From: Andreprevotia chitinilytica DSM 18519
GTDB lineage: Bacteria; Pseudomonadota; Gammaproteobacteria; Burkholderiales; Chitinibacteraceae
NCBI RefSeq assembly: GCF_000711875.1
Contig: NZ_JONM01000028.1
Coordinates: 1 to 42,398, forward strand
Direction of reading: 5' to 3'
Length of the DNA: 42,398 nucleotides
Shown: positions 571-42,398 of the stretch, one piece after another
Layout of the letters: every line of letters starts with the position of its first letter
How positions within the stretch are numbered: the stretch's first letter is position 1
Translations under genes and position numbers: made by a program
Notes under the pieces: generated by a model
The model's database searches: none
What the model saw: the letters and a program-made list of their open reading frames with translations, nothing else
Told to the model about the DNA's origin: nothing

Positions 571-3396
571 TTACTTCAGACCCACCGGCAGATTCGGGTA
601 TTCCTGGCTGAGCGAGTACTTGCTCGTGCCAACCGTCAACACGTAGTTGGACGGACCGGAGATCGGCAGTTGGTAGTTCAGCGTGATGGCAACCGATGCG
701 CCCGGTGCCAGTGATTGCCAGGTCGGTACGGTGAACTGCGCATGGTTGAAGTCCGCCTTGAAGCCGCCGATGTTGTTCGGGCCGTTGTAACCAGCAGTCA
801 CCACCTTCAGGCCGTAGCCGGATTGGTCGCTCATGTTGGACGGGGCCGACACCGGGTAGTCGAACTCAACCAGCGAGCCGCCCGGGATGGTGGTGGCGGA
901 ATTGTTCGTCACCGTCAGGACCGGGTTGATCGGATAGTTGCTGTCGCCCATCTTCCAGCCACCCAGGGTGATGCTCACATTGGCGGTGGTCTGCGGCAAC
1001 GTGGTCTCGGCGCGCTTGTTGCCATACGGCGCAGCGGCTTTGAGCTTGTTGTACAGATCAGTCGTCAGCGTGGTGCCCATGAAGTACTCACCCTTGCCGC
1101 CGTTCTTGGTTGCATCCCAAGCGTAGTCGCCTGCCATTTCCCAGATCATCACGCCGCCGATACCGTTGTTCACGATGTAGTCGGCCTTGGCGTTGATGGA
1201 CTGTTCGGTTTCAACCGACAGGAAGACTTGCTTGGTGGCATTCCACAGCCACGGTGCGACCAGCGTTGCGCTGTAGTTCGGCGAGTACGTACCGGTGATG
1301 GTCTTGTCGGTCACCTTGTAGGCGTCCAGATAGTCCGGAACGATGCCGTTCTGCAGGTTCAGCGCGTGCCACAACGGGTTGCCGCCGCCAGGAACCGGTG
1401 CGCCGGTGCTGTCGAGGTCATACCAGATGTTGTCGATGCCGGTTGCGCCGGTGCCGCAGGTTGCGACGCCGTTGCAGGTCACGGTGGAGTTGGTCACGCC
1501 AGAGGTGCCCCACAGACCGTTGGTGCCGCCAGTCACGCCCTTCCAGCCGCGGGTGTAGTACGGCACGCCGATGTTGATCCGGCCGGCTTGCAGTGCACCG
1601 CGGTAGTAGTGGTAGGCCCAGTCAACGTTCAGGTAACCGATGTTCTGGAACTGGTAGGCGCTACCGGCCTTCAGTTCAGCATCGTTGCCGTCGTCATACA
1701 GCGCGGCGTTCGGACCAACGTACTGGTTCCAGCCACCGTGCAAGTCGTAGGACATCAAGCTGGCGTAATCCAGGTACTGGAGCGCCGACATGTTTTCTTC
1801 GCCACGCAGGATCCAGCCAGAAGCCGAGCCAGCGATGGTGAGCATGTAGTACTTGTTGTCTTGAACTGCAGCAGCATCCAGCTTCTGACGGATCGTCTTC
1901 AGCAGGAGGTTGTAGCTGGTCATCAGGCCCGACAGACGCGGTTGCGAGATGGTGAAGTCCAGCGGGTTGCCGGCCTTGCTGTTGGTGGTCGGGTGTTCGT
2001 AGTCGATATCCACGCCGTCGAAGAAGCTGTATTGACGCAGGAACGCCACGACAGAATCCGCGAAGGTGTTGATGCCGGCCGTGTTCGTCGAACCGTCCGC
2101 ATTGGTGGTCATGGTGTAGAAGCCAGTGCCGCCAGCCCAACCGCCGATCGACATCATCACCTTCACGCCCGGGTACTTCTTCTTGTACTGAGCGAGCAGG
2201 TTGAAGTGGCCGTTGTACGGCAGCGAGGTATCCATGGCCGCGCCCGCGATGGTCGGCCAGGTGAGGCCGGTATCCGGGTTGGTGGCGCCAGAGCCGATGC
2301 TGACCTTGTAGGTGTTTTGATCGACCGAGCCGAACGCGTAGTTCAAGTGGGTGATCTTATCCCACGGCAGGTTGTTCACCAGGTAAGCCGGGGAGCCATC
2401 CACGCCGGTACGCCAGCTGGCGAAGTAGCCGACGATACGACGGTTCAGGCCGTTGGCGAGGATTTCACGACCGTTGGTGTCATACACGCCGCAATACGGC
2501 ACGTTGGCGACGGAGGTGGTCAGGCCATCCGGCTGGCAAGCTGCGCCAGACGACGGTGTCGGTGTGGGGGTCGGCGTCGGGGTAGCCGGCGCTGGGGTCG
2601 GCGTGGCGGTAACAGGCACCGGTGTCGGTGTTGCTGTGACCGGAACTGGCGTCGGAGTCGGTGTGACGGGCTTCGGTGTCGGTGTTGCAGTGACCGGGAC
2701 CGGAGTCGGTGTCGGGGTAGCTGTAACCGGAACCGGCGTCGGAGTCGGCGTGGCCGGCTTCGGTGTCGGGGTAGCGGTTACCGGAACTGGGGTCGCAGTG
2801 ACCGGAACCGGGGTAGCAGTCGTGCCGCCGCAGGTGCCGAGCACAGTCCAGTCCTTGCCGGAACCGGACGGGCCGCTGTTGGTGGACGGGTTGGAGCTGG
2901 TCCACCAGTTGGCGACGTAGTTGACGCCGTTCAGGGTGACCTTGTCGCCTTGGTTGTAGTTAGCCTTGGTCGAATCCCAAGCGGCGTAACAGGTGCCGGA
3001 CGGGGTCGGGGTGGCGGTAACAGGAACCGGCGTCGGCGTTGCAGTGACCGGAACCGGCGTAGGAGTCGGTGTCGGAGTAGCCGGTTTCGGCGTCGGCGTT
3101 GCGGTGACAGGGACCGGCGTCGGTGTCGGTGTGGCGGTAACCGGAACCGGTGTTGGCGTCGGGGTGGCGCCACCAGCGCTCACACCCAGATCGGTCCACA
3201 GGCTGGTGTTGGTCGGGTTCCAGCCGGTGCTGGTGTAGTCGGTCTGATTGACCAGGGCTTTATAGTCGTGCCCTTGATAGGACACGATGGTGCCGGCGGT
3301 GTAATACACGTCGGGCGCCCATGCCGGATAAGCGGCAAAAGCATGGACGGCATACAGCGCAGCCGGAATCACCGCGAAGGCGAAACGATGCTTCAT
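571..3396 (-). CDS. Secreted modular GH18 chitinase
   Basis: An endochitinase-type enzyme of about 941 residues that hydrolyses beta-1,4-GlcNAc polymers outside the cell. The order of parts is: signal peptide (about 1-21, ending AVHAFA); a first CBM5/12 chitin-binding module (about 22-72, aromatic-rich, YPAWAPDVYYTAGTIVSYQG); a Thr-Pro linker built on TPVPVTATPTP (about 77-133); a second CBM5/12 (about 136-188, CYAAWDSTKANYNQGDKVTL); a longer Thr-Pro linker (about 193-283); the GH18 barrel from about 318, with substrate strand SIGGW and catalytic motif DGVDIDYE (catalytic Glu about 467); and a beta-rich C-terminal domain (about 800-941) of unknown role, perhaps another binding module. The frame opens one codon earlier with TTG, but ATG at 3396 is chosen because GGAGGAGA lies just upstream. 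It stands alone, with its own terminator. Confidence 0.95.
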   Translation of the reverse strand: MKHRFAFAVIPAALYAVHAFAAYPAWAPDVYYTAGTIVSYQGHDYKALVNQTDYTSTGWNPTNTSLWTDLGVSAGGATPTPTPVPVTATPTPTPVPVTATPTPKPATPTPTPTPVPVTATPTPVPVTATPTPSGTCYAAWDSTKANYNQGDKVTLNGVNYVANWWTSSNPSTNSGPSGSGKDWTVLGTCGGTTATPVPVTATPVPVTATPTPKPATPTPTPVPVTATPTPTPVPVTATPTPKPVTPTPTPVPVTATPTPVPVTATPTPAPATPTPTPTPTPSSGAACQPDGLTTSVANVPYCGVYDTNGREILANGLNRRIVGYFASWRTGVDGSPAYLVNNLPWDKITHLNYAFGSVDQNTYKVSIGSGATNPDTGLTWPTIAGAAMDTSLPYNGHFNLLAQYKKKYPGVKVMMSIGGWAGGTGFYTMTTNADGSTNTAGINTFADSVVAFLRQYSFFDGVDIDYEHPTTNSKAGNPLDFTISQPRLSGLMTSYNLLLKTIRQKLDAAAVQDNKYYMLTIAGSASGWILRGEENMSALQYLDYASLMSYDLHGGWNQYVGPNAALYDDGNDAELKAGSAYQFQNIGYLNVDWAYHYYRGALQAGRINIGVPYYTRGWKGVTGGTNGLWGTSGVTNSTVTCNGVATCGTGATGIDNIWYDLDSTGAPVPGGGNPLWHALNLQNGIVPDYLDAYKVTDKTITGTYSPNYSATLVAPWLWNATKQVFLSVETEQSINAKADYIVNNGIGGVMIWEMAGDYAWDATKNGGKGEYFMGTTLTTDLYNKLKAAAPYGNKRAETTLPQTTANVSITLGGWKMGDSNYPINPVLTVTNNSATTIPGGSLVEFDYPVSAPSNMSDQSGYGLKVVTAGYNGPNNIGGFKADFNHAQFTVPTWQSLAPGASVAITLNYQLPISGPSNYVLTVGTSKYSLSQEYPNLPVGLK

Positions 3397-4721: not shown

Positions 4722-4730
4722 GTTAACACC

Positions 4731-4833
4731 GTAGCCCGGACGGCTTCGCCGGCCGGGGTTGCGCCATGCCAAGCATCCACCACGGCGAGTGTTGAGACGC
4801 AAGCTCCCCGGCCGGCGAAGCCGTCCGGGCTAC
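4731..4833. repeat. Inverted pair of REP-like repeats (family 1)
   Basis: GTAGCCCGGACGGCTTCGCC (4731-4750, continuing to 4758) and its reverse complement (4806-4833) flank about 47 bp. The whole can fold into a long hairpin. The right arm lies 3 bp from the stop codon of the VanZ-like gene and 70 bp beyond the queD stop, so it fills the gap between two convergent genes. Confidence 0.8.
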
Positions 4834-4836
4834 GGT

Positions 4837-10240: not shown

Positions 10241-10272
10241 TGCAGCATTCGTCCCAGTTGATTCCAGATACA

Positions 10273-10384
10273 GAGCGGCTGACAAACCCCAGCGTAGCGG
10301 TGCTGGCTAGGCGTGCGAAACGCAGGCAGTACGTGCGTACGGCAAGTGAGCACAACAACGCCAGCAGGGGTTTGTCAGCCGCTC
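10273..10384. repeat. Structured dispersed repeat, copy A
   Basis: This 112-bp element has an 18-bp perfect basal stem (GAGCGGCTGACAAACCCC, 10273-10290, with its complement at 10367-10384) and an inner stem TGCTGGC (10301-10307) / GCCAGCA (10360-10366). Its apex carries a TGCG-AAA-CGCA hairpin and a GTACG-TG-CGTAC hairpin. Copies B (39425-39538) and C (40681-40789) share the core but have different, self-complementary basal stems. Here it sits 33 bp upstream of potG, in its leader, and upstream of the dgt promoter. No open frame in it is convincing. Confidence 0.85.
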
Positions 10385-10534
10385 CAAAAATTGCGGGGCA
10401 TTCTAACAAAATAAGAGGCGTCAGATAGACCGTATTTCCGGCTCTTTTACCGCCACTTTCGCCAATCGGTACAAGGGATTGGCGCGGATTCGGGCGCGGG
10501 TTCGCCCCATGCGACGATACTCCTTCCCGGCCCG

Positions 10535-13464: not shown

Positions 13465-13537
13465 GGTGGTGATGAAGAACGCGGCCTGTGGTAGTGCCCT
13501 CACCCCCGGCCCCTCTCCCGTAAACGGGCGAGGGGAG
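13465..13537. repeat. Dispersed repeat module a (copy at 42132-42204)
   Basis: This GC-rich stretch shares GAAGAACGCGGCC and GTGGTAGTGCCCTC with 42132-42204. In both it ends in a hairpin: CCCCTCTCCCGTAAACGGGC plus GAGGGG here, and CTCCCACAAGTGGGCGAG in the other copy. The hairpin stem differs slightly but remains paired in each. Confidence 0.75.
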
Positions 13538-13553
13538 AAAAACGCAGCGCTTT

Positions 13554-13636
13554 CGTAGGATGGGTGGAGCACAAGCGATACCCATGCGGTTTCGTCAACG
13601 TGAGCGATGGGTATCGCAAGCTCAACCCATCCTACG
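13554..13636. repeat. Dispersed palindromic repeat module b (copy at 41982-42064)
   Basis: The outer arms CGTAGGATGGGTGGAGC (13554-13570) and GCTCAACCCATCCTACG (13620-13636) enclose inner arms GCGATACCCAT and ATGGGTATCGC, giving a nearly perfect 83-bp palindrome. The second copy has a diverged right arm. Confidence 0.8.
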
Positions 13637-13675
13637 CGCCAGTCAAAAAGGACCGCGATGGATCAACCCAAGTCC

Positions 13676-13861
13676 CCCTCTCCTTCACAGGAGAGGGCTG
13701 GGGAGTAGATGGTCTGCCCCCCTTTCAAAAGCGCCCCTCCAGCCAGTCCGGCACGGGGGTTTCGGGGATCGAGTGTTTGAGGGCCTTGGCCCGAGTTTTC
13801 GATTCCCGCCCGTGACGGGCTGGCTGGCGGGGGTATCTGGCGCTTGCGACAGACGCTTTTG
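13676..13861. repeat. Long fold-back repeat module c (copy begins at 42260)
   Basis: From 13676 to 13814 this matches 42260-42398 in length and almost completely in sequence; the second copy is cut by the window edge. It can fold on itself: CAAAAGCG (13726-13733) with CGCTTTTG (13854-13861), the CCAGCCAG region (13739-13746) with CTGGCTGG (13820-13827), and a central GGGATCGA / TCGATTCCC with GGGCCTTGGCCC at the apex. No convincing reading frame is present. Confidence 0.75.
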
Positions 13862-16022: not shown

Positions 16023-16099
16023 GGCTATGTAGCTCAGTCGGTTAGAGCACAGCACTCATAATGCTGGGGTCACAGGTTCGAGTCCCGTCATAGCCACCA
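16023..16099 (+). tRNA. tRNA-Met (CAT), elongator type, copy 1
   Basis: A 77-nt cloverleaf. Acceptor stem GGCTATG/CATAGCC, D arm GCTC...GAGC, anticodon stem CAGCA/TGCTG with loop CTCATAA (anticodon CAT), T arm ACAGG-TTCGAGT-CCCGT, encoded CCA. The sequence closely matches the pattern of E. coli elongator tRNA-Met, not the initiator. It has its own promoter and a downstream hairpin terminator. Confidence 0.97.
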
Positions 16100-24134: not shown

Positions 24135-24211
24135 GGCTATGTAGCTCAGTCGGTTAGAGCACAGCACTCATAATGCTGGGGTCACAGGCTCGAGTCCCGT
24201 CATAGCCACCA
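24135..24211 (+). tRNA. tRNA-Met (CAT), elongator type, copy 2
   Basis: This 77-nt gene is identical to copy 1 except for one base: the T loop reads CTCGAGT instead of TTCGAGT, so the near-universal T54 is C. All stems, the CAT anticodon and the encoded CCA are kept. The change would remove the T54-A58 reverse-Hoogsteen pair and the m5U site, so this copy may fold or work less well. A strong terminator follows. Confidence 0.95.
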
Positions 24212-29910: not shown

Positions 29911-29915
29911 CCCTC

Positions 29916-30064
29916 GTAGCCCGGACGGCTTGCCGGCCGGGGTGACTTCGGTGGCCATATAACCCCGGCCAGCAAGCCGTCCGGGCTACATGTAGGAGCG
30001 AGCTTGCTCGCGATGGCCCTGTTTGGATATTCAAGGTCGCAATCGCGAGCAAGCTCGCTCCTAC
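29916..30064. repeat. REP cluster: inverted pairs of families 1 and 2
   Basis: An inverted family 1 pair (29916-29942 and 29963-29989) is followed directly by an inverted family 2 pair (29993-30015 and 30042-30064; core GCGAGCTTGCTCGC). Together with the neighbouring hairpins it fills the 405-bp gap 29729-30133, in which no gene is seen. Confidence 0.8.
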
Positions 30065-39424: not shown

Positions 39425-39538
39425 AGAGCCACTAGCAAAACCCAGCGAAGCGGTCCTGGCTAGGCGCGCCGACGCAGACAGTACAAGTGGTACGGCAAGG
39501 AGGCGCAACAACGCCAGGAGGGTTTTGCTAGTGGCTCT
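39425..39538. repeat. Structured dispersed repeat, copy B (sbp-cysT gap)
   Basis: 114 bp with a 19-bp perfect basal stem, AGAGCCACTAGCAAAACCC (39425-39443) and its complement (39520-39538), and inner stem TCCTGGC (39454-39460) / GCCAGGA (39513-39519). Compared with copies A and C (TGCTGGC/GCCAGCA) both sides of one inner pair have changed together. The right end shares its last base with the sbp stop codon TAA, so in the sbp-cysT message the hairpin begins at the stop. Confidence 0.85.
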
Positions 39539-40536
39539 TACTTCTTGGCAATGCTCGCCGCAATCTGGTCGTACACCCCGCCGTCGTCGAAGTGCACCTT
39601 CTGTGCCTTCTGCAAACCGCCGAATTCGTTCACGCCAAATAGCTTCACATCCGGGAATTGCTTGGCGTATTTGGCGAACACTTTCGGGTCGCGCGGGCGC
39701 AGGTAGTTTTGCGCGGCGATGTCCTGACCGGCCGGGCTCCACAGGTACTTGAGGTATTCCTCGGCCACCTTGCGGGTGCCCTTCTTGTCCACCACCTTGT
39801 CGACCACGGCGACCGGCAGATCGGCATCGATCGAGATGGACGGATACACCACTTCGAAACCACCACGGCCGAATTCACGGGCGATCATTTCGGCCTCGTT
39901 TTCAAACGTCACCAGCACGTCGCCGATATTGCGTTGCATGAAGGTCGTCGTCGCGGCGCGACCGCCGGAATCGAGCACCGGCACGTTCTTGAACAGGCCA
40001 GTGACGAACTCACGCGCCTTGGTCTCGTTGCCGCCCGGTTGTTTCAGCGCATAGCCCCACGCGGCGAGGTAGGTATAGCGGCCGTTGCCGGAGGTCTTCG
40101 GGTTCGGCACCACCACCTGTACCCCCGGCTTCAGCAGGTCGCTCCAATCTTTGATGCCCTTCGGATTGCCCTTGCGCACGATCAGCACCTGCAGGCTGGA
40201 GAACGGCGCCGAGTCGTTCGGCAGGCGTTTCTCCCAACCCGGATTGATCTGCTTGCCCTTCTCGACGATGGCATCGATATCGGTGGACTGGTTCATTGTC
40301 ACCACATCCGCCTCCAACCCATCGATGACCGAACGCGCCTGTTTGGACGACCCGCCATGCGACTGCTGCACCGTGACCTTCTCCCGGAACCTTTGCTCGT
40401 AGTGCTTGGTGAAGGCCGGGTTGTAGTCCTTGTAGAAATCACGCATGACATCGTAGGAAACATTCAGCAGCGTGGTATCAGCTACAGCGGGCAATGAAAG
40501 CGCGGCGGCAAGGAGAGCGGCAAGCAATCTGGGCAT
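39538..40536 (-). CDS. sbp: Periplasmic sulfate-binding protein
   Basis: A 332-residue periplasmic protein that binds sulfate and hands it to CysTWA. The signal peptide is MPRLLAALLAAALSLPAVA, followed by DTTLLNVSYDVMRDFYKDYN, the signature start of mature Sbp/CysP. VTVQQSHGGSSKQARSVIDG and VVVPNPKTSGNGRYTYLAAW are the conserved ligand-site segments. ATG 40536 is chosen for AGGA 8 bp upstream; ATG 40545 is in frame just before it. It heads the minus-strand sulfate operon. Confidence 0.95.
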   Translation of the reverse strand: MPRLLAALLAAALSLPAVADTTLLNVSYDVMRDFYKDYNPAFTKHYEQRFREKVTVQQSHGGSSKQARSVIDGLEADVVTMNQSTDIDAIVEKGKQINPGWEKRLPNDSAPFSSLQVLIVRKGNPKGIKDWSDLLKPGVQVVVPNPKTSGNGRYTYLAAWGYALKQPGGNETKAREFVTGLFKNVPVLDSGGRAATTTFMQRNIGDVLVTFENEAEMIAREFGRGGFEVVYPSISIDADLPVAVVDKVVDKKGTRKVAEEYLKYLWSPAGQDIAAQNYLRPRDPKVFAKYAKQFPDVKLFGVNEFGGLQKAQKVHFDDGGVYDQIAASIAKK

Positions 40537-40621
40537 GATGAACATCCTGTAAGCAATGGCTGGATTGTGGTGGAAGCGCTTAGAACGACAAAGACGTTCC
40601 GGTTAGATCATTAAAGCCCAA

Positions 40622-40658: not shown

Positions 40659-40680
40659 TCGGTATTACAAACCCTTAAGA

Positions 40681-40789
40681 ACCGTCAACAAAACCCAGCG
40701 TAGCGGTGCTGGCTAGGCGTGCGAAGCGCAGACAGTACAACTGGTACGGCAAGCAAGCACAACGACGCCAGCAGGGTTTTGTTAATGGT
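40681..40789. repeat. Structured dispersed repeat, copy C
   Basis: 109 bp with basal arms ACCGTCAACAAAACCC (40681-40696) and GGGTTTTGTTAATGGT (40774-40789), one wobble and one mismatch, and inner stem TGCTGGC (40707-40713) / GCCAGCA (40767-40773). It begins two bases after the mop stop codon on the minus strand. The core is almost identical to copy A. Confidence 0.85.
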
Positions 40790-40791
40790 GA

Positions 40792-41007
40792 TCAAAGCGT
40801 GGCAATCGATACTTCCGTGGACTTCACGAAAGCGATCACTTCGCGGCCCGGCTTGAGATCAAGCTCCTTGACCGAACGCGTGGTGATCACCGAGGTGACA
40901 ATGCCGGACGGTGTGGTGACATCGACTTCGGACAACACCGGGCCTTCGATGATTTCCTTGATGGTGCCGCGGAACTGGTTGCGAACATTGATGGATTGGA
41001 TCGCCAT
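40792..41007 (-). CDS. Molbindin-type (Mop/TOBE domain) molybdate-binding protein
   Basis: A 71-residue single Mop domain: MAIQSINVRNQFRGTIKEII, then EGPVLSEVDVTTPSGIVTSV and ITTRSVKELDLKPGREVIAF. This is the classic molbindin sequence pattern (N-Q-F-x-G-x-I / G-x-V-x-S-E-V / T-x-x-S). Such proteins assemble into hexamers that bind molybdate or related oxyanions in the cytoplasm, for storage or homeostasis. ATG 41007 has AGGAGC 8 bp upstream; a longer reading is not needed. It lies next to sulfate and sulfonate transport genes, which handle similar oxyanions. Confidence 0.93.
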   Translation of the reverse strand: MAIQSINVRNQFRGTIKEIIEGPVLSEVDVTTPSGIVTSVITTRSVKELDLKPGREVIAFVKSTEVSIATL

Positions 41008-41981: not shown

Positions 41982-42064
41982 CGTAGGATGGGTTGAGCAA
42001 AGCGATACCCATGCGGTTTTGCTCGACATGGGCGATGGGTATCGCAAGCTCAAACAATCCTACG
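41982..42064. repeat. Dispersed palindromic repeat module b, second copy
   Basis: CGTAGGATGGGTTGAGC (41982-41998) and the diverged arm GCTCAAACAATCCTACG (42048-42064) surround the same inner GCGATACCCAT / ATGGGTATCGC pair as 13554-13636. Confidence 0.8.
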
Positions 42065-42131
42065 AGCTGTTTCATCAGGCGCAATCCGCAGGGCATTGCG
42101 CCGCATATCCCCTCTCAGACTGGTGGGAGAG

Positions 42132-42204
42132 GGTGGTGAAAAGAACGCGGCCCGTGGTAGTGCCCTCTCCCCCGGCCCCTCTCCCACAAGTGGGCGAGGG
42201 GAGC
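42132..42204. repeat. Dispersed repeat module a, second copy
   Basis: This matches 13465-13537, including GAAGAACGCGGCC and the hairpin CTCCCACAAGTGGGCGAG. The three modules are present in both clusters but in a different order (a-b-c at 13.5 kb, b-a-c here). Confidence 0.75.
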
Positions 42205-42259
42205 AAAACCAAAGCGCGGCGCAATTGAAGAAGAAACACTGCCGCACCACACCAAGTCA

Positions 42260-42398
42260 CCCTCTCCTTCACAGGAGAGGGCCGGGGTGCGGATGGTCTG
42301 CCCCCCTTTCAAAAGCGCCCCGCCAGCCAGACCGGCACGGGGGTTTCGGGGATCGAGTGTTTGAGGGCCTTGGCCCGAGTTTTCGATTCCCGCCCGTG
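42260..42398. repeat. Fold-back repeat module c, second copy (cut by window edge)
   Basis: The same length as and nearly the same sequence as 13676-13814, starting with CCCTCTCCTTCACAGGAGAG. The second half that closes the fold would lie past the window end. No gene is seen from 41934 to 42398. Confidence 0.8.

Follow-up and report, generated by a model that had tools for sequence, protein, structure and literature searches.

What is the folded repeat that occurs three times in one 42,398-nt stretch of the Andreprevotia chitinilytica DSM 18519 genome (contig NZ_JONM01000028.1, positions 1 to 42,398; hereafter the window): a conserved structured RNA serving the host, or a piece of mobile DNA? 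A first-pass annotation, made from the letters of the window alone, had described three copies sharing a folded core with a compensatory base-pair change and had assigned them to no named family. Our analysis indicates that the repeat is very probably a Correia-type MITE, with IS5-family terminal repeats moved in trans, insertion at TNA, survival at stop codons and a core homologous to that of the Correia element. The copies and their parts lie as follows.

10273-10384, + strand: element copy A, between divergent genes for a PotA-like ABC ATPase (- strand) and a dGTPase (+ strand), away from any stop codon
10273-10290, + strand: left outer arm of copy A, comprising the terminal inverted repeat and two more nucleotides; partner 10367-10384; 3 of 16 nt differ from the consensus
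10301-10307, + strand: inner stem P2 of copy A, TGCTGGC; partner GCCAGCA at 10360-10366
10313-10316, + strand: stem P3 of copy A, GTGC; partner GCAC at 10350-10353; supersedes the TGCG/CGCA hairpin proposed earlier
10321-10346, + strand: apical core of copy A, CGCAGGCAGTAC-GTGC-GTACGGCAAG, the portion in common with the Correia element
39426-39537, + strand: element copy B, its right end abutting the TAA stop (TTA at 39538-39540) of a sulfate-binding-protein gene on the - strand
39473-39499, + strand: apical core of copy B, CGCAGACAGTAC-AAGTG-GTACGGCAAG
39538-40545, - strand: sulfate ABC transporter substrate-binding protein gene (335-aa ORF), with copies B and C on either side
40679-40791, + strand: element copy C, its right end abutting the TGA stop (TCA at 40792-40794) of a small - strand gene that encodes a Mop/TOBE domain
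40727-40753, + strand: apical core of copy C, CGCAGACAGTAC-AACTG-GTACGGCAAG

All three copies were recovered on the + strand by a covariance model (R1; matches at 10272-10385, 39425-39538 and 40678-40792), so the three described earlier are real, yet the 5.15-Mb genome holds 68 distinct places, not three. Copies in the A. chitinilytica genome (G000) were gathered by BLAST, in which copy A returned at least 41 rows in its own genome, and then by the model, not by core pattern. R1 was built from 36 copies, all from this genome; alignment A1 likewise holds 36 of 42 copies, leaving out five that lack a 10-nt insert and one divergent copy. The R1 search of the genome gave 79 rows, of which 11 repeat a place on its opposite strand, and 66 of the 68 places were analysed further, two short places being left out.

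Other repeats also occur in the window. A different palindromic repeat, GTAGCCCGGACGG...CCGGGG, lies at 425-455, 4728-4758, 4806-4836 and 29912-29942, and we take it to resemble the GTAG-tagged REP type. A second dispersed repeat (13475-13814 and 42018-42398) consists of stretches 84-95% alike and extends to the window end, tandem 27- and 33-nt repeats lie within a long ORF on the - strand (2533-3195), and two nearly identical tRNA genes form a pair at 16023-16096 and 24135-24208. Two tRNAs were also the only Rfam matches in the whole window at gathering thresholds; at permissive thresholds three loci gave six sub-threshold hits and no match at a curated score.

The element is a near-palindrome of ~112 bp. 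RNAalifold and a count of pairs agree on a single stack: an 18-pair outer arm (P1), a 10-nt bulge that is absent from some copies, a seven-pair stem that corresponds to the inner stem recognised earlier (P2), GTGC/GCAC plus two pairs (P3), and GTAC/GTAC with a variable loop (P4). Against each window copy, none of 200 shuffles folded equally well (z = -7.40, -7.31 and -3.69). The proposed double change from TGCTGGC/GCCAGCA to TCCTGGC/GCCAGGA is genuine, and across 36 copies that pair reads GC in 33, CG in two and UA in one, and is never broken. Of the two small apical hairpins said to be conserved, GTAC/GTAC is kept in 98.6% of cells; the TGCG/CGCA hairpin fares worse than P3, being broken in 14.6% with a single double change. 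The long-range GTGC/GCAC pairing of P3 is kept in 98.6% (15 double changes in 144 cells; 36 copies). Over the full structure of the same number of copies, 104 cells are double-changed against 25.6 ± 5.1 in shuffles, double changes are present in 18 of 35 pairs, and 95.0% of paired cells are kept against at most 47.6% after sliding one side. A conserved fold with compensatory change is therefore upheld, and the concern raised at the outset, that many more copies might show no covariation, was not borne out: covariation is significant across many more copies.

Conserved pairing reaches beyond the inner stem into the outer arms, but joint variation of the arms need not mean selection on a fold, because replacement of repeats or correction of palindromes can likewise yield matched terminal repeats; the inner stems are the better evidence for a fold that is kept. 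Read on the + strand, the stems hold more wobble pairs than A-C mismatches: 87 against 51 and 110 against 32 in P1 (sets of 86 and 104 distinct rows, respectively), 16 against 7 and 10 against 4 in P2, and 21 against 4 and 11 against 10 in P3. The excess is not universal, since the two pairs beside P3 give 4 to 1 and 2 to 5, and both the detection and the alignment of these rows relied on a + strand model, alignment to which may itself favour wobble pairs. The wobble excess hints, within the limits of such a model, that the + strand is the strand that folds.

Evidence of movement lies at the ends of the element. Many copies are flanked by a 3-bp repeat, TTA or TAA, and T.A stands exactly at the boundary in 82 of 173 left ends and 57 of 173 right ends, every other offset from -8 to +8 giving 0-20. 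Identical TNA duplications flank 21 of 73 copies in the named genomes and 6 of 34 in other genomes of the family, against a control of about 2%; in gene sense, the intact duplications in these two sets read TTA in 17 cases, TAA in nine and TGA in one. They are frequent in Neisseriaceae bacterium JH1-16 (10 of 17 copies) and in A. lacus (6 of 19 counted copies), and only 1 of 66 copies in the A. chitinilytica genome has one. Within JH1-16, one copy (locus L086, 5531-5644), flanked by TTA at either end, interrupts the apical loop of a second, and three copies in A. lacus are arranged in tandem with a period of 117. Tandem arrays of the element were observed at L153 (1851-2199) and L186 (1052-1578), in A. 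lacus and in G015.

In A. lacus, a search for the arm end next to TNA revealed two such ends in inverted orientation, spanning 872 bp including TNA (162465 to 163336). They bound a complete IS of 866 bp with perfect 16-bp terminal repeats, GAGCCGCTAACAAAAC, and TTA on both sides. Its two overlapping ORFs carry DUF4096 and DDE_Tnp_1 domains; NCBIfam NF033580 (IS5 family) matches the second above its cut-off and the first at 108 of the 110 bits required. The 16-bp repeats are identical to the consensus outer 16 nt of the element arms in A. chitinilytica, from which window copies A, B and C depart in their left arms at 3, 2 and 3 positions, respectively. TNA targets are known for the IS1031 group of the IS5 family. 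The A. lacus IS and the element are thus alike in terminal repeats and TNA target; the IS, however, has no folded core and the element no transposase. A genome of another family (G096) has an IS of 865 bp whose repeats are almost the same; it is flanked by TAA and TTA, hence by no identical duplication, and in G138 one such arm end adjoins a transposase gene. The arm-end pattern itself occurs 44 times in A. lacus (G001), twice in Andreprevotia sp. IGB-42 (G002) and five times in A. chitinilytica.

The A. chitinilytica genome yielded no complete partner IS, but one partial match to IS5_3 (the NF033580 model) that lacks the repeats. Among ten other element-bearing genomes, seven (G005, G018, G022, G015, G004, G048 and G050) gave no IS5_3 match at E ≤ 0.001, G003 gave one weak match, and G096 and G044 gave many. 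The A. chitinilytica copies are probably old and their IS lost. Terminal repeats of a full IS, a duplication of fixed length, many copies, empty sites in relatives and the lack of a transposase of its own together identify the element as a MITE, a non-autonomous transposable element whose terminal repeats are of the IS5 family and whose target is TNA.

Empty sites are found where copies B and C stand. Both are empty in Andreprevotia sp. IGB-42, with the stop codons at the same place, and site B is also empty, again with its stop codon in place, in A. lacus and in G009; the codons are therefore native to the genes. Two of the sites are occupied by other sequence, about 183 nt at site C in A. 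lacus and about 165 nt at site B in G005, neither matched by R1. Placement beside a stop codon is general. Counting a stop of an ORF of at least 60 codons within -3 to +4 of an element end, we found a stop codon of an opposite-strand gene at the right end in 43 of the 66 A. chitinilytica copies, and at the other end in five. The corresponding counts are 45 and 10 of 73 copies in the named genomes (73 of 86 distinct matches, 13 having been removed by hand beforehand, L147 and L150 included: two belonged to a tandem array, and several stood close to the end of a locus, were incomplete or were weak) and 21 and 5 of 34 in other genomes of the family (34 of 71 rows, the remainder being truncated, short or tandem, repeated on the opposite strand, or at places counted before). 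More than 60% of copies adjoin a stop codon. Relative to the element + strand, the genes on either side of the A. chitinilytica copies, as called by a simple codon-usage script, are oriented (-,-) in 42 cases, (-,+) in 10, (+,+) in nine and (+,-) in five. Pooled, 109 of 129 adjacent ends are right ends (binomial p = 5e-16, for copies that are not independent). Simple insertion does not predict so strong a bias, and selection against one orientation in mRNA may contribute.

Such placement raises the prospect that the element is instead a conserved structured RNA or regulatory 3' element, for instance a terminator or an RNase target, that the host maintains at gene ends by selection, a view we regard as unlikely. 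Covarying core pairs, copies directly after stop codons in many genera, the skew in orientation just described (43:5, 45:10 and 21:5) and the retention of the fold by elements of similar flanking sequence in Methylophilus sp. QUAN and Methylophilaceae bacterium 11 would all suit it, as would one terminator-like hairpin in copy C, confined to the mRNA strand. The region as a whole, however, has 2 terminator-like hits where shuffles give 1.9, and it is the strand antisense to the gene that the wobble pairs favour. The empty sites B and C in congeners, the very unequal congener numbers given above, and the target duplications, nesting and tandem arrays likewise argue for a selfish mobile element. 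A narrower alternative, to which we lend considerable credence without preferring it, concerns the arms: their covariation could be a product of mutation, through quasi-palindrome correction or exchange of terminal repeats, leaving selection on the inner core only. The outer arms are transposon terminal repeats, which must be alike and which differ as whole sets between lineages, and template switching homogenises long palindromes. Against this, paired changes also occur in P2 and P3 (15 of 144 cells in P3), neither of which belongs to the terminal repeats, and wobble pairs exceed A-C mismatches in both when pooled (26 versus 11 and 32 versus 14), though alignment to the model may favour wobble.

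Hairpin repeats of other known kinds fit less well. A REP/RAYT-type element, a hairpin repeat moved by a tyrosine transposase, would also be a dispersed palindrome lying between genes, and the genome has three Y1_Tnp matches, two of them over the family cut-off; but no element lies in the loci of these three matches (L046-L048), the foot of the hairpin has no GTAG tag, and TNA duplications and IS5-type terminal repeats refute the identity, which we hold to be very improbable. REP/BIME sequences with RAYT share with the present element their dispersed extragenic palindromes, whereas the element duplicates its target and has neither the GTAG foot nor any RAYT linkage that we could see. Still more remote is an integron attC-like site, a hairpin after a stop codon whose bottom strand is active: position after stop codons and strand asymmetry are the same. 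The attC boxes read GTTRRRY and RYYYAAC; the GTT of the R box is not kept here (GCT, ATT, GTC and GTG occur), and copies B and C lie beside sulfate transporter genes rather than in a cassette array. We reject the attC identity on these R-box letters, as set against that consensus. Other bacterial MITEs such as RUP, ERIC and RPE are, by the available portions of two accounts (PMC2229807, PMC10969869), small, with terminal repeats, a long RNA stem-loop and many intergenic copies, as here, but these reviews give TA as the terminal letters of most such elements; the likeness is one of description.

The Correia-type MITE reading draws on a resemblance of core. R1 was run on 150 genomes of the order, not picked by core, and at least 31 match at E ≤ 1e-6 while the other 119 gave no match, the counts of matches being lower bounds since at most 24 candidates were scored per genome under stricter filters. 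Among the matches are copies in genome G067 which, in gene sense, read AGTGGATTAAATTTAAACCAGTACGGCGTTGCC...CTTGCCGTACTATTTGTACTGTCTGCG...AATCCACT with TAT/ATA outside, and which we take to be the Correia element. R1, which contains A. chitinilytica copies only, scores 58.7 bits on two G067 copies with the whole model aligned. Over 101 bases, a G067 copy shows 100% identity with the best match in both of two N. gonorrhoeae records, either of which holds at least 40 places that match it. Compared with the Correia search strings given in the available part of PMC5039591, one end of this copy is exact and the other has one mismatch. In core alignments to the G067 copy, window copies B and C score above every one of 2000 shuffles, and the score of copy A, less convincing alone, is reached by six of 2000; one place in Cupriavidus metallidurans CH34 is matched both by copy A and by the gonococcal element. 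The inner core of the element is shown to be homologous to the Correia core of Neisseria.

The window element and the Correia element (CREE, NEMIS) thus have the same apical core in the same direction (TCAGGACAAGGCG side, CCGGTACGG side), a similar length (112 bp here, against a 104-108 bp form), a high copy number and a long stem-loop. They differ in ends (TATAGTGGATTAA... against the consensus GAGCCGCTAACAAAAC) and in target (TA against TNA), and the window element occurs outside Neisseria and has a known candidate IS partner. The window copies carry the conserved Correia core; their ends are different from the 26-bp Correia repeats TATAGTGGATTAA... as the strings appear in the accessible text of PMC5039591, and TNA takes the place of the TA target duplication. 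Although no named family had been recognised for it, the repeat is of a kind that can be described, a MITE with a Correia core and IS5-family ends, and the accompanying suspicion that such repeats may already be catalogued in related genomes proved sound, since Neisseria has the same folded core in its Correia element. It was stated at the outset that resemblance to a known repeat or to a fragment of an IS would speak against the proposal; such a resemblance exists in part, in this Correia core and these IS5-family ends.

Correia repeats have been described in Neisseria since the 1980s as altering gene expression, with their mover left undetermined, as far as the accessible parts of two papers go (PMC2649163, PMC10969869); what could be seen of the first, from 2009, reports them only in Neisseria. 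Their MITE nature is stated in the available text of PMC10969869 and PMC2229807. Our literature search found no title reporting Correia-type elements outside Neisseria, most subscription papers lying beyond its reach, and a search by core strings gave, among the matches listed, titles from unrelated fields only. Within the genus Neisseria, at least 19 of 30 genomes have an IS5_3 match, and none of 30 IS5_3 loci (L271, L296-L324), among the matches listed, has Correia repeats as the ends of an IS. In one Neisseria-genus genome (L319, 722-2231) a complete Correia element stands on either side of an IS5-like transposase gene; we rejected this arrangement as an IS with Correia-repeat ends, both flanking elements being whole. 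The search for a partner IS by its ends covered only GAGC[C/G]GCTAACAAA ends and Neisseria.

What is new here is the presence of Correia-type cores across the Betaproteobacteria on several different sets of terminal repeats. Among the named genomes the core is constant while the arms differ as whole sets, being GAGGACTCGCG... in Rhodoferax, AGGACTTACGCAAAA... in Solimicrobium and TATAGTGGATTAA in Neisseria, with further distinct sets in Methylotenera, Methylophilus and others; identity of the core in these genomes is partly by construction, because their loci were picked by an exact core pattern, as the A. chitinilytica and G067 copies were not. Short derivatives were observed in G048 (L237, L238, L239, L240 and L242), with the terminal repeats kept and the core partly or wholly lost. 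The constancy of the core on differing arms is the basis for a further, doubtful but possible, reading in which the folded core is the lasting unit: a single module would have spread through the Betaproteobacteria, Neisseria with its Correia elements included, by way of the terminal repeats of several different IS5-like transposons; its retention would reflect a role in cis, played by the folded DNA or RNA, in mobilisation or in surviving at gene ends.

For the Correia-type MITE itself, we propose that an IS5-family transposase would act in trans on the repeats, inserting copies at TNA. When the target is a TAA or TGA stop codon, both of which fit TNA, the 3-bp duplication would restore the codon, so that the gene stays intact and the copy survives, and most insertions elsewhere in coding DNA would be lost; restoration of the codon in this way would account for the more than 60% of copies that abut one. 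In the transcript, such a copy would form a long hairpin directly after the stop codon, which may, by analogy with Neisseria, be a substrate of RNase III; Correia transcripts there are bound or cut by this enzyme according to the part of the published work available. Most tentatively of all, the core might be conserved through an action in cis in the element's own spread. Related elements in other Betaproteobacteria, among which A. lacus has a complete IS5-family element with matching ends as well as copies with intact duplications, make the movement of such elements directly testable, and the stop-codon rule would indicate how an element that targets TNA can fill a genome without breaking its genes.
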